DNA from: Chloroflexota bacterium
GTDB lineage: Bacteria; Chloroflexota; Dehalococcoidia; Dehalococcoidales; JAFGLR01
Length of the DNA stretch: 40,599 nucleotides
Assembly (NCBI GenBank): GCA_016210585.1
Contig: JACQTX010000079.1
Coordinates: forward strand, 1-40,599
Direction: 5' to 3'
Shown: piece by piece, positions 7,288-28,980 of the stretch
How positions within the stretch are numbered: position 1 is the first letter of the stretch
Layout of the letters: every line of letters starts with the position of its first letter
Translations under genes and position numbers: made by a program
The notes under the pieces: generated by a model
Database searches by the model: none
What the model was told of the DNA's origin: nothing
The model's input: the letters and a program-made list of their open reading frames with translations, nothing else

Positions 7288-8301
7288 TTAGACCGCTTTG
7301 GCCGGCTTCTTGAGCCGGAGCAGGCAATCCACCACAGCCGGGTCAAACTGGGTCCCGGCGCACCGGGTAATCTCCGCACAGGCAACCTCTGCCGGTAGTG
7401 CCTTGCGATACGGTCGCTCGGAGGTCATGGCATCATAGGCGTCGGCTACGGCCAGGATTCTGGCCGTCAGAGGGATGCTGTCACCGGCCAGTCCATCGGG
7501 ATAGCCGGAGCCGTCATAGTGCTCATGGTGGTGCCGCACCGCGACCATGATGTCATTGTCCTCCACGATGGGTGTCAGGATATGCTCGCCCATTTCGCTG
7601 TGTCTTTTGATGTGCTGGTACTCTTCCTCCGTCAGCCGGGCCGGTTTGTTCAGCACCGATTCCTTCACCCCTATCTTGCCGATATCATGGATCAGCCCCG
7701 CTATCCTTATCTTCTCAACCTCTTTCGGCGATAGCCCCATCTCCCGGGCGATAGCTACGGATGTTCGGGCAACTACTTCCGAGTGGCCACTGGTATAATG
7801 GTCTTTGGCCTCCAGGGCGGCGGCCAGGGCAGTGATAGCATTCACGTAGAGCAGACGAATCCGGCTGGCCTGCGCGGCGACTTTCTGCTCCAGGTTGGCC
7901 TGGTAGTCCCGGTTCTCCACCTGCAGCCGGCGCATCTGCAAGGCCCGGCCCACGCTGAGACTGACGGCTTCCAGGTTAAAGGGCTTTGTCAGGTAGTCGT
8001 AGGCCCCTTGGCGCATGCAGTCTATGGCTGTGGTAACATCAGCTATGGCGGTGAGCATAATAACAGCGGTATCAGGGTAGTTTGCTTTTACCAACGGCAG
8101 CAGCTCAAGGCCGGTCCGGCCTGGCATCTTGATGTCCATGATGGCCAGGTCAAAAGCGCCGTTGTTCAGCACTGCCAGGGCCTGGTCCACGTTCTCTGCC
8201 AGGTGACAGCGATAGCCCTCCCGCTCCAGCCGCTGGGCGATGAGCCGCCGGATAGCCTCCTCGTCATCCACGATCAGTATGGTGCCCTGTTTTTCCGCCA
8301 T
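7288..8301 (-). CDS. Response regulator with HD-GYP domain (c-di-GMP phosphodiesterase)
   Basis: An RpfG-type two-domain protein of 337 residues. The receiver occupies 1-125 with phospho-acceptor Asp56 (IMDIKMP) and the KPF lysine near 107. A short coiled linker (125-155) leads to the HD-GYP domain, with HDIGKIG at 205-211 and [11 protein letters not shown] at 258-268. Both signature motifs are complete, so hydrolysis of cyclic di-GMP, or of related cyclic dinucleotides, is likely. ATG 8301 has a GAGG about 8 nt upstream. It lies between the PAS kinase and the CheY-like gene. Phosphorylation by the six-PAS kinase is inferred from position only. Confidence 0.95.
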
Positions 8302-22409: not shown

Positions 22410-22505
22410 GGGAGCGGATGAGTTCCGGTGGACTTCGCGGACTTCAAATCCGTTGGGGGGCATTAAAGTGTCTTCGGTGGGTTCGACTCCCATCCGCTCC
22501 CGCCA
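22410..22505 (+). tRNA. selC: tRNA-Sec (anticodon TCA)
   Basis: A selenocysteine tRNA of 96 nt including an encoded CCA. The acceptor stem has 8 pairs (GGGAGCGG with CCGCTCCC) and the T stem 5 pairs (GTGGG/CCCAT around TTCGACT), the 8+5 form of bacterial tRNA-Sec. The D stem is a long 6-pair helix (GAGTTC/GGACTT) with a 4-base loop. The anticodon loop CTTCAAA (22442-22448) reads TCA, which decodes UGA. A long variable arm follows (GGGGGGCATTAAAGTGTCTTC region). The discriminator base is G, as in E. coli selC. The organism therefore probably makes selenoproteins; none is recognised in this window. Confidence 0.95.
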
Positions 22506-23198: not shown

Positions 23199-23888
23199 AT
23201 GGAAAAGGTAGCGGATAACGCAGTCTCGATACTGGTTGTAGAAGATGACCCGCTCATTACCGACTTGCTGAGGATGGGGCTGGGCCACGAAGGCTTCCGG
23301 GTAATCACAGCTCGGGACGGTGAAAACGCGCTGGAGCTTCTGCGCCGGCAGCAAGTCTCTGTAGTAATCCTGGACCTGATGCTGCCTGGTATGAGCGGTG
23401 AAGAAATATGCAAGCGCATCAGGGCAGAAAGTAATATTCCGATTCTGGTCCTGACTGCCCGAGACCAGGTGGAATCGAAGATAAGCCTGCTGAAGCTGGG
23501 GGCTGACGATTATCTGGTAAAGCCATTCGACTTCGGTGAGCTACTGGCCAGGGTGCAGGCTTTGCTGCGCCGGAGTGGCAATTCTGCCGAGTCCAAAATA
23601 CTGACCTTTCTCGATATCGAGATGAGAATAGATACGAGAGAGGTATTCCGCCACGGCCAACCGATAGAGATGAGCACCAAGGAGTTTGATTTACTGCGTT
23701 TCTTCCTGTCCAACCAGCGCCGGGTATTATCAAAAGAGTCCATTCTGAACCAGGTGTGGGGATACGACTTTATGGGTGATAACAACATCGTTGAGGTGTA
23801 TGTTGGCCATCTGCGGAAGAAGCTCGGCGAACCGTCTCCTATCCAGACAATACGGGGCGCCGGTTACAGCCTGAGAGCGCCAGGGTAG
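23199..23888 (+). CDS. OmpR/PhoB-family response regulator
   Basis: A 229-residue DNA-binding response regulator. The receiver spans 1-120 with acidic residues in VVEDDP, phospho-acceptor Asp59 (ILDLMLPG), Thr in VLTAR and Lys in LVKPF near 107-111. The winged-helix output domain spans about 130-228, with STKEFDLLRFFL, the recognition region VWGYDFMGDNNIVEVYVGHLRKKLG, and the terminal IRGAGYSL strand. The histidine kinase gene starts 10 nt after its stop. Members of this family bind direct repeats spaced 11 bp; such repeats lie just past the kinase gene at 25357-25394. Confidence 0.96.
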   Translation: MEKVADNAVSILVVEDDPLITDLLRMGLGHEGFRVITARDGENALELLRRQQVSVVILDLMLPGMSGEEICKRIRAESNIPILVLTARDQVESKISLLKLGADDYLVKPFDFGELLARVQALLRRSGNSAESKILTFLDIEMRIDTREVFRHGQPIEMSTKEFDLLRFFLSNQRRVLSKESILNQVWGYDFMGDNNIVEVYVGHLRKKLGEPSPIQTIRGAGYSLRAPG

Positions 23889-23898
23889 AGACAGGCAA

Positions 23899-25332
23899 AT
23901 GACTGTCAAGCTGCGCTGGCGCCTGTTTCTGCTCCAGTTGGTAATTGTGACGGCAGTTTTCACCACCATCGGCATTATGATTTACCTTCAGGCGCAGTCT
24001 CGTTTCATCGCCAACCGGTTAGCACAGGCGCAGGAAAACGTCTATTGGGCGTTGACGAACGCTGAGCCTTATGGTGACCTCCGCGTCAAGGACATCGCGG
24101 AAATTGGCCGGAATCTTGCTGAGGTCCCCGGCCCTGACTACTCCTTCTTTTTTCTAGCGCCGGACGGCAATCTGGTAAATACGCTGAGCCAGGGAGCACC
24201 GGGGTATGTACCGGCCCTGGAAGTTTTGCCCGGTCTTGCTGAGACACTGGGGAAGGGTGAGACCGCCGTGTCTGTGACGAATAGCGCCGGCAGTGCCTAC
24301 CGGACCTTGCTCTATGTCGTGCCTGTATCAGACCCTGAAGGCAGGCGGCTCGGCGCTGTCCAAGTTGAGGTTCGCCTGGATGAAGCTGACCTGGCACTCC
24401 GGAAGCTCAGGGTATTGCTGGCTGAAGGTTTTGGCATTGCCTTCATGGCGATGGCGGCGGTATGGTTCCTCTTGACCAGAAACGCTTTACGGCCTCTCGA
24501 AGATGTGCACCGTATTTCCGGGAGCGTCGCCAGGGGAGACTTCCACGCCCGCGTGAGTTTGCCCAGTGTGCGTGATGAGGTGTATGAGGCGGCTGCCGCA
24601 TTCAATAGTATGCTTGACCACATCGAAGCCTCCATGCAAAAAGAGAAGATGGCTCAGGAGAGTATGCGGGCGTTTCTGGCTGATGTGTCCCACGAGCTGC
24701 GCTCACCGCTGACGATTTTGACAGGCTATCTGGACATCTTGCTCCGGGGTGCCAAGGACAGCCCTGAAGAGCTACAAAACGCCCTGGAAGGCATGAAGCT
24801 GACAGCTGGCCGGATGAAGCGGATGACGAACGACCTGCTAACACTCAGCAGGCTGGATGCTGGGGCAGAGCTGCAGATGAAGACCGTTGCGCTGAACGCC
24901 GTATGCCGCCAGGTCTTTGAAACAGCCCGCATGATTGCCCCTGATAAGGAGATGAAATTCATAGACACTGAACCCATCCATGTTAATGGTGATGAGGAGC
25001 TTTTGTCGCGGGTAGTGTGGAACCTGATAGAGAATGCTATCAAGCATACCCCTGCCAGTGGCAGGATTATGCTATCTTTAGCACGAAGCGGACCAAATTG
25101 TATCATCACAGTAGAGGACAACGGCGAGGGCATATCCGCGCCAGAGCTGCCACGTCTTTTTGAGCGTTTCCACAAGGTGCACCAGACCGATTCCTCCGGC
25201 GCCGGGCTGGGGCTGGCCATCGTCAAGTCCATAGTTGCGGCGCATGGCGGACAGGTAACGGTCCAGAGCACCGTTGGCAAAGGTACCACCTTCACCGTCA
25301 ACCTGCCGATGCTGCAGTCTCCACCAGCATAG
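23899..25332 (+). CDS. Membrane sensor histidine kinase (HAMP-HisKA-HATPase)
   Basis: A 477-residue kinase. Transmembrane helix 1 is at about 8-30 (LFLLQLVIVTAVFTTIGIMIYL region), an extracytoplasmic sensor of about 140 residues follows, and helix 2 is at about 173-193. HAMP spans about 194-247. The dimerization domain carries phospho-acceptor His265 in FLADVSHELRSPLTIL. The ATPase domain has NLIENAIKHT (N box), VEDNGEGI and GAGLGLAIVKSIVAAHGG. It is an EnvZ/PhoR-type class and pairs with the regulator just upstream. The signal is unknown; the sensor region shows no recognised ligand motif. Confidence 0.95.
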   Translation: MTVKLRWRLFLLQLVIVTAVFTTIGIMIYLQAQSRFIANRLAQAQENVYWALTNAEPYGDLRVKDIAEIGRNLAEVPGPDYSFFFLAPDGNLVNTLSQGAPGYVPALEVLPGLAETLGKGETAVSVTNSAGSAYRTLLYVVPVSDPEGRRLGAVQVEVRLDEADLALRKLRVLLAEGFGIAFMAMAAVWFLLTRNALRPLEDVHRISGSVARGDFHARVSLPSVRDEVYEAAAAFNSMLDHIEASMQKEKMAQESMRAFLADVSHELRSPLTILTGYLDILLRGAKDSPEELQNALEGMKLTAGRMKRMTNDLLTLSRLDAGAELQMKTVALNAVCRQVFETARMIAPDKEMKFIDTEPIHVNGDEELLSRVVWNLIENAIKHTPASGRIMLSLARSGPNCIITVEDNGEGISAPELPRLFERFHKVHQTDSSGAGLGLAIVKSIVAAHGGQVTVQSTVGKGTTFTVNLPMLQSPPA

Positions 25333-25356: not shown

Positions 25357-25394
25357 TTCAGGAAACTCTTATCTGGCATTCAGCTAATATTCAG
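25357..25394 (+). promoter_or_regulatory. Candidate operator: TTCAG repeats on an 11-bp register
   Basis: TTCAG occurs at 25357-25361, 25379-25383 and 25390-25394, that is, offsets 0, 22 and 33. An 11-bp direct repeat register is what OmpR/PhoB-type regulators bind. AT-rich -10-like sequence (TATATTAT, 25411-25418) follows at a fitting distance. Binding by the adjacent response regulator is an inference. Confidence 0.4.
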
Positions 25395-25423
25395 GTTCGT
25401 ATGTTAAAGTTATATTATAGCTC

Positions 25424-25542
25424 TGATACAAGGGATATTGTGTCCAGCGGAGGCGATGAAGCGCCGCCTGTACTTGGTAACTTGGGCGGCGCGGAGCCGG
25501 TAGTTAAACCGACCGCACAAATCGCGGTCGGTTTTTGTTTTT
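25424..25542 (+). ncRNA. Structured leader ending in an intrinsic terminator, no family recognised
   Basis: Helices I can draw: GATACAA/TTGTGTC around 25425-25444; an 8-pair helix GCGCCGCC/GGCGGCGC closing a 16-nt loop around 25461-25492; and the terminator, an 11-pair stem AAACCGACCGC/GCGGTCGGTTT (25506-25516 with 25524-25534) with a T-rich tail to 25542. The segment GGAGCCGGTAGTTAAACCG (25493-25511) overlaps the 5' arm of the terminator, so alternative pairing could control read-through into the secreted protein gene 58 nt downstream. It does not match the conserved cores I know for cobalamin, c-di-GMP, fluoride, SAM, TPP or FMN riboswitches. Confidence 0.5.
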
Positions 25543-25599
25543 CTCAAGGTTATTCCTACTGGCTCGTAAAAATAAGGCTGGTAGTAAAGGAGGGGTATC

Positions 25600-26883
25600 A
25601 TGAAGAAGATTCTCAGGCTTGTGGCAGTGCTTGCCGTGGCTGTCATGCTGCTGGCAATAGCCGTCCCGGTGCTGGCTGACCAACTCAACGGTGACGGGGA
25701 TACCGTCAATGGCGGAAACTCGTGGAACGTAGGCGAGGTCTATTCGGGAGACGTAGTCAGCAGTGCGAATGCCGCAATCAGCATCTCGCGCAGCGGCGGT
25801 ATCAACAGCGGGAACGTCTATGCAAATGGCGCAACTGTGTCTTTCAGCGTATCAGGACCAAACGTCACTGCAGGTTTCCCGGGTCCTGGCTTCAGCCTGA
25901 CCGGGACAACTCCCAGCGCCATCACGCTCCCGGGCACTTGGGCTAATAATAGTAGCGGCAACACCGGCGACATTCCCATAACTTTGACGCTGACGGCTGA
26001 CGGTGAACCGGGGGACTACACCGCTAAATTGACGTACACAGCAACCGGCGCGAATGCCAAACCAAACACAGCAGATAACGTGCGGAGCACCGATATCGTG
26101 GTGAACTGGACTATTGTGGCACCGCCACCGCCCCCACCAGACCCGCTCAGCATAGCCGCACCAGCAGACATCACCGTAGAAGGTAACACTACGGGCGGGG
26201 CTACCGGCGTCGCCCTGGGCGGTCCGACAGTAGCGGGGGGCACACCCCCATATACCATAACGAATGATGCCCCGGCCTTCTTCCCGCTGGGTGATACGGT
26301 AGTCACCTGGACGGCCACGGATGACAATGGCGATACTGCCTCTGCCACGCAGACGGTCACCGTGGTGGATACTACGCCCCCAACAATAACGGCGGCTAGT
26401 TCACTGGCTGTCATCGTGGGTGCACCGTCCTCTGTCTTGCCAGCACCGTCCGTATCCGACATCGTTGACCCCGACCCGACGGTAACCAATGATGCGCCAG
26501 GTGTCTTCCCGCTAGGCACAACAGTGGTCACCTGGACGGCCACGGATGCCAGCGGTAATTCGGCCACCGCGACGACAACGGTGACAGCGACTTACAACTT
26601 TGGCGGTTTCCTGCCGCCTCTGGGTCCCGGACCGAAGGAATTTAAGGCCGGCTCCACCATCCCGGTGAAGTTCCAGCTATTCGATTACGACGGCAACGCC
26701 GTCGGCACGGCAAGCGGGACTGCTGCTATGACCGGCGCCTCAGCGGCCATCCGCTATGACGCCGATGCGCAGCAGTATATCGCCAACCTGAAGACCCCCA
26801 AAGGCGCGGCGCCTGGCAGCTACACCATCACCGTAACCCTGGATGATGGCACGTCTCACTCGGTCTCGGTGACCCTGAAATAG
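25600..26883 (+). CDS. Secreted HYR-repeat protein
   Basis: A 427-residue exported protein. The signal peptide occupies 1-27, with cleavage likely after VLA in PVLADQ. An N-terminal beta-rich domain of about 145 residues follows. A proline run (PPPPPPDP, about 176-183) leads to two HYR-type immunoglobulin-like repeats at about 184-267 and 268-345, each with a FPLG(D/T)T(T/V)VVTWTATD block. The last module (about 350-427) starts KEFKAGSTIPVKFQLFDYDG and ends in a beta strand. No LPXTG, lipobox or C-terminal membrane helix is seen, so it is probably released or loosely bound. AAAGGAGG precedes the ATG. The structured leader and TCS upstream suggest regulated expression. Confidence 0.88.
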   Translation: MKKILRLVAVLAVAVMLLAIAVPVLADQLNGDGDTVNGGNSWNVGEVYSGDVVSSANAAISISRSGGINSGNVYANGATVSFSVSGPNVTAGFPGPGFSLTGTTPSAITLPGTWANNSSGNTGDIPITLTLTADGEPGDYTAKLTYTATGANAKPNTADNVRSTDIVVNWTIVAPPPPPPDPLSIAAPADITVEGNTTGGATGVALGGPTVAGGTPPYTITNDAPAFFPLGDTVVTWTATDDNGDTASATQTVTVVDTTPPTITAASSLAVIVGAPSSVLPAPSVSDIVDPDPTVTNDAPGVFPLGTTVVTWTATDASGNSATATTTVTATYNFGGFLPPLGPGPKEFKAGSTIPVKFQLFDYDGNAVGTASGTAAMTGASAAIRYDADAQQYIANLKTPKGAAPGSYTITVTLDDGTSHSVSVTLK

Positions 26884-27036: not shown

Positions 27037-28470
27037 CTAGCTGACCAGGCTAGTATCCGCTTTTTCCACAATACGCTGGAGCTCTCTTACTGCCACATCA
27101 GGCAGTATGCCTGGCTTCGGGTCTCGTTTGAACTCGTAGTACTTGTCCAGAGCACGGTGGTATAGGTCTTTACTGCCCGCCGCAGCCCAGGTGTCACGTG
27201 GCTGGTTCAATATTAGCTCGCTCTGGAAGGCCTCCCGGCAGTGCCTTAAGGTATGCGCTGATGCCAGGTAGTGGCCGGCAGAAGCGCCCTGCATGATTTC
27301 GTTCCAGGCCAGCGTTTCCGCGTCAACCGTCAGCCCCGAAAGGGTCCGCTGCAAGATGCCAATCAACAGGTCATCCATTATTAGCTGGACGGGACTCAGT
27401 GCCTTGGCCGAGTCCACGCGCCCGGCACCATCCAGAATATCGCATCCGCTCAGGGCCACCAGCAAGCCTTTTGTGCTCTTCTGCATCAGCGCCTGCCCGT
27501 CAGGCACCAGCGAGTCTGAACCCAGTCCCATGCTGCGCACCGGGACATGGAGAGTTTCCTTTATGAGCTGGGTGAGAGCAGCCAGGCCGAGTGCGGCTTC
27601 CACGCTTGAGTCAACGGTAGCCCCGGTCTTCATATCAAGGGTGTAAAATGATGGTCCAGCGATGAGAGGCGTGCCCGGCTGGACCAATTGTGTCATCACC
27701 ATGCCCGCCAGAATCTCAGCCGCGCCCTGCAGCACGGCACCAGCAGTAGTGATTGGCGCGGTGGCCCCGGCAGAGCCAAGCGTGCAAGCGTGTATGGGGA
27801 CCCCGTAGCGGGGCGCCCGAAGAATTACCTCCGTGGCCCACGGCTCGAATTGGAGAGGCGAACGGGCTGCGGTAATGATGCTCACTATCGGGCGCTCTCT
27901 TAGCTTCCCGGGGCTGTCGCTCGCCACCGCTGCCATTTCCAGCAGATAGGTGACACTTGCGGCACTGAAAGGCTGTATAGTGATGTGTTTTGCTGTTCCT
28001 TCCAATAATGCCTTGAAGGCGTGAAGGTCAGCCGTTGCCTGCGGCATATCGCCAGCAGTCGGAAATGTCACGGAACTAATGCGGTCGAGTCTGTCAGCCA
28101 GTTGGCCAAACTCGGCAACATCAGCCAGGGTTGAACTGCGACACAGGAGTGTCTCGGCCTCGATATAGCAGGGCGCCCCGGTGCCACCACGAGTATGGAA
28201 TGACCCTTCAGGATGGGGGAAATAGAGGTCATGGCTGCCGCCGAGCCTCAGCGTGCGAGGACACGTCCTGAGAGCTGCCTCCGTTAGCTCCCGACTGAAG
28301 GTGACCTTCTGACTGGCATGATTGACCTGGGCCCCCGCCTTCTCCAGCACGTCAAGAGCCTGGGCATGCTCTACGGTTATGCCAATGGTGGCCAGGACTT
28401 GCACGGCCTTTTCATAGATGATGGCCACCTCTTGGCTGCTTAGCAACTTCAATGACAGGTTTGCTCTCAT
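27037..28470 (-). CDS. MttB-family (non-pyrrolysine) corrinoid methyltransferase
   Basis: A 477-residue member of the trimethylamine methyltransferase (MttB/MTTB) superfamily, which moves a methyl group from a quaternary or tertiary amine to a corrinoid protein. The TIM-barrel shows HTRGGTGAPCYIEAET near 96-112, VTFPTAGDMPQATADLHAF in the middle, and the C-terminal LYHRALDKYYEFKRD. No in-frame amber codon interrupts it, so it belongs to the non-Pyl branch, which includes glycine betaine and proline betaine demethylases. The substrate is unknown. ATG 28470 with GGAG 8 nt upstream gives the family length; an upstream open extension to 28812 is unlike the family. It is divergent from the cobalamin riboswitch; no corrinoid protein gene adjoins it. 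Confidence 0.9.
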   Translation of the reverse strand: MRANLSLKLLSSQEVAIIYEKAVQVLATIGITVEHAQALDVLEKAGAQVNHASQKVTFSRELTEAALRTCPRTLRLGGSHDLYFPHPEGSFHTRGGTGAPCYIEAETLLCRSSTLADVAEFGQLADRLDRISSVTFPTAGDMPQATADLHAFKALLEGTAKHITIQPFSAASVTYLLEMAAVASDSPGKLRERPIVSIITAARSPLQFEPWATEVILRAPRYGVPIHACTLGSAGATAPITTAGAVLQGAAEILAGMVMTQLVQPGTPLIAGPSFYTLDMKTGATVDSSVEAALGLAALTQLIKETLHVPVRSMGLGSDSLVPDGQALMQKSTKGLLVALSGCDILDGAGRVDSAKALSPVQLIMDDLLIGILQRTLSGLTVDAETLAWNEIMQGASAGHYLASAHTLRHCREAFQSELILNQPRDTWAAAGSKDLYHRALDKYYEFKRDPKPGILPDVAVRELQRIVEKADTSLVS

Positions 28471-28573
28471 ATCTGAAGCTCCGATCTTTAGACTTCCCTC
28501 CGCCCGATAATATCGGTTCTGCGGTGCAGTAAGCTCGGTAGATAGAATCATCTTGCTATGGCAAGTTGTTGAC

Positions 28574-28602
28574 ACGGTAGCACGGTTTTTGGGGTTTGTC
28601 AA
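28574..28602 (-). promoter_or_regulatory. Possible promoter of the mttB-like gene
   Basis: On the minus strand a perfect TTGACA (28597-28602) and a weaker TACCGT (28574-28579) with 17-bp spacing, leaving a leader of about 97 nt. A piece of the hairpin repeat family (TCGGGTTTTGAAAACCCGG, near 28667) lies just upstream. Confidence 0.45.
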
Positions 28603-28723
28603 ACCTATTCTGGCCTCAAAGCTGGCTTGCCATTCCGCAATATTGATGCATCTTGCTTCTTCAGGTCGGGTTTTGAAAACCCGGTTTACAGATTGACTGG
28701 TTGAATCCTGATTTGGTGGCCAC

Positions 28724-28752
28724 TTGCGTTTTGCCGGGGATTCCTTTATGCT
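28724..28752 (+). promoter_or_regulatory. Promoter of the cobalamin-regulated operon
   Basis: TTGCGT (28724-28729), a 17-bp spacer and TATGCT (28747-28752), ending about 20 nt before the riboswitch aptamer. Confidence 0.6.
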
Positions 28753-28771
28753 AATAGCAATTGAATATCGC

Positions 28772-28980
28772 GCTGAGAGGTGCCTGAGTAGCTCAGGCGT
28801 GCCGGATAGCAAGTCGGTGCAAGTCCGACGCAGTCCCGCCTGCTGTAATCCTTTGGCAGAAGGAAAGCCAGAACGCCGGACCTCGAAGAACGCATAGCCT
28901 CCGCGGCGAAAGGGGGTGAGGGAATATGTTCGTCACATGAATATCCCCTTGTCACCTGGGCAAGGGGATTTTTTGTTTTG
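28772..28980 (+). promoter_or_regulatory. Cobalamin riboswitch with terminator
   Basis: The aptamer (about 28772-28890) is closed by GAGG/CCTC. It holds the cobalamin core: AAGTCGGTGCAAGTCCGACGC followed by AGTCCCGCC and CTGTAA (a B12-box variant with a two-base insert), then AAAGCCAGAACGCCGGACC. Downstream an expression platform ends in the intrinsic terminator ATCCCCTTG/CAAGGGGAT (28943-28969) with a T run. Cobalamin binding is expected to favour termination and so turn off btuF and the cob genes. The terminator position points to transcriptional control. Confidence 0.93.

Follow-up and report, generated by a model that had tools for sequence, protein, structure and literature searches.

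What controls the gene of a secreted repeat protein that follows, in a bacterium of the Chloroflexota, a strongly folded untranslated leader? In the window (that is, the whole stretch of 40,599 nucleotides that was analysed), a gene pair for a response regulator and a histidine kinase on the plus strand (23199-25332) is separated by a 267-nt gap from an open reading frame of 427 amino acids on the same strand (25600-26883). An earlier note, made without database searches, had seen in this gap a chain of strong helices with an intrinsic terminator, and had put it first among the candidates for a new regulatory RNA in this stretch. We asked whether the leader is indeed new, and in which direction it would act on the gene.

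The structured leader with its intrinsic terminator lies at about 25424-25545, ahead of a strong ribosome-binding site (AAAGGAGGGG) just upstream of the ATG at 25600. The region 25436-25545 folds with -47.3 kcal/mol, compared with -35.6 +/- 3.4 kcal/mol for 200 dinucleotide shuffles, none of which was as good (z = -3.45). The terminator (25506-25545, plus strand) consists of a hairpin of 11 pairs, AAACCGACCGC-acaaatc-GCGGTCGGTTT (25506-25534; 5' arm 25506-25516, 3' arm 25524-25534), which has -18.4 kcal/mol on its own and is followed in the terminator scan by the U-rich tail TTGTTTTTCT. The helices and the terminator are thus found where they had been placed, and so is the start codon: the T-rich run ends at about 25542, and the ATG lies 58 nt beyond. 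Note that the terminator scan alone performs at chance level (2 terminators found, 2.6 expected); it is the conservation in related leaders that lifts this terminator above chance.

Transcription of the leader could begin at a weak promoter-like site, TTCAGG-17 nt-TATTAT (25390-25418, plus strand; putative start near 25425), which has 8 of 12 consensus bases and falls under the scan threshold, or it could run through from the two-component genes upstream. The controlled gene (25600-26883, plus strand) begins with MKKILRLVAVLAVAVMLLAIAVPVLA. Its product has an N-terminus that reads as signal-peptide-like and an HYR domain (Pfam PF02494, E = 1.3e-12), in agreement with the secreted HYR protein that had been announced, and its role would be adhesin-like. 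We found no match for it among solved structures and no close orthologue in 60 relatives; the matches in a wider contig search were partial only, mostly over HYR or Ig-like stretches and from unrelated phyla. Since there were no close orthologues and only partial matches, we followed the leader rather than the gene.

Assignment of the leader to an RNA family

The Rfam model of the c-di-GMP-II riboswitch aptamer (RF01786) finds the leader unaided. The match (Infernal cmscan, Rfam 15; 25440-25523, plus strand) runs end to end, from model position 1 to 84 of 84, and scores 62.4 bits (gathering score 53.5; E = 1e-13). The structured leader is therefore a new copy of a known riboswitch class. The earlier statement that it cannot be matched to a known aptamer core does not hold, and a match to a known Rfam family, which the earlier note itself had named as speaking against novelty, makes the supposed new RNA a member of the c-di-GMP-II family.

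The leader shares with this family and with its solved structure (3Q3Z) the helices P1, P2 and P3, the pseudoknot that joins the loop of P3 to the strand ahead of AACCG, and the conserved UGA, UGG, GAG and AACCG, including the ligand-contact strand with A69, A70 and G73. On the plus strand, the 5' strand of P1 (GCGG, 25447-25450) pairs with 25513-25516, that of P2 (GGC, 25452-25454) with 25496-25498, that of P3 (GCGCCGCC, 25461-25468) with 25485-25492 and that of the pseudoknot (UAAC, 25478-25481) with GUUA at 25503-25506. On the other hand, it differs in the letters of the pseudoknot, where UAAC/GUUA replaces the GCAC/GUGC of the consensus with full pairing retained, in a G at the position of A61, and in P1, which has only 4 contiguous pairs (GCGG/CCGC) and pairs poorly at the positions that lie further out in the model.

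One could still think of a new riboswitch or a protein-bound leader outside the known families, as a strong fold with a terminator and pseudoknot letters unlike the family consensus would agree with it. However, a full-length match above the gathering score, in which every core position is retained and the pseudoknot still pairs, leaves this reading with next to no probability.

How far does the family reach in the phylum? Of 400 Chloroflexota genomes sampled evenly, 103 match RF01786 with E <= 0.001 and 49 contain a match above the family cut-off; among 121 nearer genomes, the source genome included, the respective numbers are 33 and 29. We oriented 31 of these Chloroflexota copies and aligned them with MAFFT, that is, without fitting the alignment to the structure. 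Because RF01786 itself served to find the copies, its fold is partly favoured by the selection in the following numbers: in the aptamer structure including the pseudoknot, 95.8% of the cells are paired (71.2 +/- 1.2% in shuffled sequences, 32-44% when the partners are slid as a control), and in 16 of the 19 pairs both partners have changed. For the P1, P2 and P3 helices the paired fraction is 93.5-96% (96% for P1), with both-side changes in 13 of 15 pairs and compensatory changes in all 8 pairs of P3; the pseudoknot is paired in 100% of the cells, with GC/UA swaps. Homologous leaders with covarying helices, which the earlier note had proposed to seek upstream of HYR genes, do exist and were found through RF01786, but the HYR genes are an unhelpful route to them: the downstream genes differ from copy to copy, while the leader is conserved across Chloroflexota.

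The c-di-GMP-II class has been called typical of clostridia and Deinococcus (review PMC9495176). Within the open literature, a scope that leaves out most subscription papers, we did not find a detailed treatment of the class in Chloroflexota.

Ligand site and variant classes

The contacts of c-di-GMP in 3Q3Z are A13, A14, U37, G39, U60, A61, C68, A69, A70, C71, C72, G73 and A74 (review PMC7288161). A shift by one position brings these contacts onto the family consensus in Rfam numbering, and from it we deduced the equivalents in the leader. By this alignment, A69, A70, C71, C72 and G73 correspond to A25507-G25511 (plus strand), the AACCG strand, which is unchanged here and invariant in the 31 copies. 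The equivalents of A13, U37 and G39 (A25451, U25475 and G25477) match by position, and that of C68 (A25506) is altered jointly with its pseudoknot partner. The ligand of the window copy would be c-di-GMP.

The presumed equivalent of A61 is G25499 (plus strand). The alignment column has A in 26 of the 31 copies, U in 3 and C in 1, and the window copy is the only one with G; this is its sole specific oddity, and it may change the affinity. Could it go further and change or tune the ligand preference of the c-di-GMP-II fold, such that this copy and the second, ordinary one in the genome answer different levels of c-di-GMP, or different cyclic dinucleotides? The contact position itself and the many variant aptamers of the same fold in the phylum (RF03169) speak for such a change; yet the known variants alter A69/A70, both of which are intact in the window copy, and the U and C that other copies have in place of A61 show that substitutions are tolerated there. 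We consider a changed preference unlikely and give it only a small chance.

The variant class c-di-GMP-II-GAG (RF03169) is abundant in some Chloroflexota, where a single genome can have as many as 14 matches to RF03169, canonical copies included (loci L065-L074; further matches in genomes G179, G031, G058 and G257). To our knowledge, no ligand has been assigned to this variant, and its Chloroflexota copies are candidates for a study of variant ligands. The window copy scores 42.8 bits with RF03169, just over a permissive cut-off of 40 and about 20 bits below its score with the canonical model. The fold is common to both, but the variant has GACCG where the window copy has AACCG: among the best 10 RF03169 matches in the phylum, 9 have GACCG and 1 has GCCCG, with the same leading G. 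The AACCG strand, together with the lower RF03169 score, therefore makes the window copy one of the canonical type. For c-di-GMP-II-GCG (RF03170), it reaches 40.8 bits against a gathering threshold of 47.9, and this class is rejected as well; RF03168 proved to belong with class I, as a variant of it.

Direction of the switch

In the aptamer, the 5' arm of the terminator (25506-25516) serves as the last base of the pseudoknot, as the AACCG strand and as the 3' side of P1. As this strand takes part in both structures, aptamer and terminator are mutually exclusive. The overlap of GGAGCCGGTAGTTAAACCG (25493-25511) with the terminator 5' arm had been pointed out before and is confirmed by the coordinates; likewise, the layout of a transcription-attenuating riboswitch, recognised in the earlier note, is borne out by a 3' aptamer strand that is common to the terminator. 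A terminator with the AACCG strand as its 5' arm is present in 29 of the 31 copies, compared with a mean of 1.0 and a maximum of 4 when the downstream sequence is shuffled, and the most variable position of the terminator helix (column 88:122) alternates between A-U and G-C. In an energy model that leaves out both the pseudoknot and the ligand, the terminator fold (-47.4 kcal/mol) is better than the aptamer-enforced fold (-36.8 kcal/mol) by about 10.6 kcal/mol, and this higher stability suggests that the default state is the terminated one.

We propose the following mechanism. When c-di-GMP is absent, the AACCG strand and the P1 3' strand would pair downstream and form the terminator hairpin (25506-25534), and transcription would halt ahead of the HYR gene. 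When c-di-GMP is bound, the pseudoknotted aptamer would retain AACCG and P1, the terminator would be blocked and the secreted HYR protein (25600-26883) would be made. Because one strand is shared by aptamer and terminator, ligand binding should block termination, and we infer that the window copy is a transcriptional ON switch.

A functional aptamer might also act as an OFF switch, or its terminator might be constitutive. The c-di-GMP-I switches of C. difficile do act OFF (PMC6200980), and the much higher stability of the unbound terminator fold could be read in the same sense. However, with a single strand used by terminator and aptamer, binding must disfavour termination, and the strand overlap is kept in all but two of the 31 copies; an OFF or constitutive element is thus very improbable. 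In C. difficile, all 4 class II switches are ON in vivo, and 3 of the 4 regulate type IV pili or proteins that are known or putative adhesins (PMC6200980). The window copy resembles Cdi-2-1, Cdi-2-3 and Cdi-2-4 of that species (PMC6200980) in having a class II aptamer before a surface or adhesion gene and, as far as can be deduced here, in the ON direction, whereas the phylum is another one and the proteins are unrelated. Furthermore, one C. difficile arrangement involves a group I ribozyme (PMC9481103), while the window leader has a plain terminator. In summary, we hold it highly probable that the leader represents the canonical c-di-GMP-II type and acts as a transcriptional ON switch.

c-di-GMP riboswitches and their genes

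Two proteins of the same genome combine a GGEEF motif with an HD-GYP domain and could make and break c-di-GMP. There are further HD_5 proteins in the genome, one of them within the window (HD-GYP-type, 7288-8301, minus strand, E = 4.5e-41), a possible c-di-GMP phosphodiesterase. A second c-di-GMP-II copy (L002; G000:C91:3656-3738) stands before a winged-helix gene (HTH_45), an arrangement that recurs in a second genus of the source organism's family (G400, L054). In addition there are two copies of c-di-GMP-I. The first (L034, L037; G000:C126:31043-31132) precedes type IV pilin-like genes with an N_methyl motif, and the second (L035, L038; G000:C39:5918-6018) precedes genes that are prepilin-like by sequence only and have no Pfam match. 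In both c-di-GMP-I copies, as read from the sequence, the complement of the aptamer 5' end doubles as the 5' arm of a terminator. This suggests that they are ON switches, unlike most class I copies of C. difficile.

In relatives from the same order, c-di-GMP-II copies are mostly followed by genes of secreted or repeat/Ig-like proteins; others precede the gene of a T2SSE-type (PilT-like) ATPase or of a histidine kinase, a glmS-like gene, or the winged-helix gene named above. The glmS-like gene (GATase and SIS), directly behind the c-di-GMP-II copy L016 (G249:C1:1832610-1832693), is an unusual target. Elsewhere in the phylum, many c-di-GMP-II copies precede HD-domain proteins or bacterial sugar transferases. 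In one Chloroflexota group, canonical copies lie upstream of membrane HD-domain proteins (L009-L013, L017-L020, L022-L024 and L026), which are HD-GYP-type, some with MASE9, as judged from four that were run against Pfam. A c-di-GMP-II switch ahead of HD-GYP-type proteins would mean negative feedback on c-di-GMP.

Two further RNA features are found in the window. A cobalamin riboswitch (28761-28899, plus strand), with 32.0 bits just over its threshold of 31.5, lies upstream of genes for a periplasmic binding protein (29025), a DBI_PRT/CobT-type protein (30135) and CobS (31202), and it would represent ordinary B12 control; it overlaps the 5' end of an open reading frame of the trimethylamine methyltransferase (MTTB) family on the opposite strand (591 amino acids; 27037-28812, minus strand). 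A tRNA-Sec gene (22410-22501, plus strand, 77.4 bits) indicates that the source organism probably uses selenocysteine.

c-di-GMP is a signal to settle down, and it is plausible that the HYR gene is a member of a c-di-GMP attachment regulon. The locus adds a case from the Chloroflexota of a secreted, adhesin-like protein whose production is probably turned on by c-di-GMP through direct action on the RNA, and the four c-di-GMP riboswitches in this one genome jointly point to a regulon for surface attachment.
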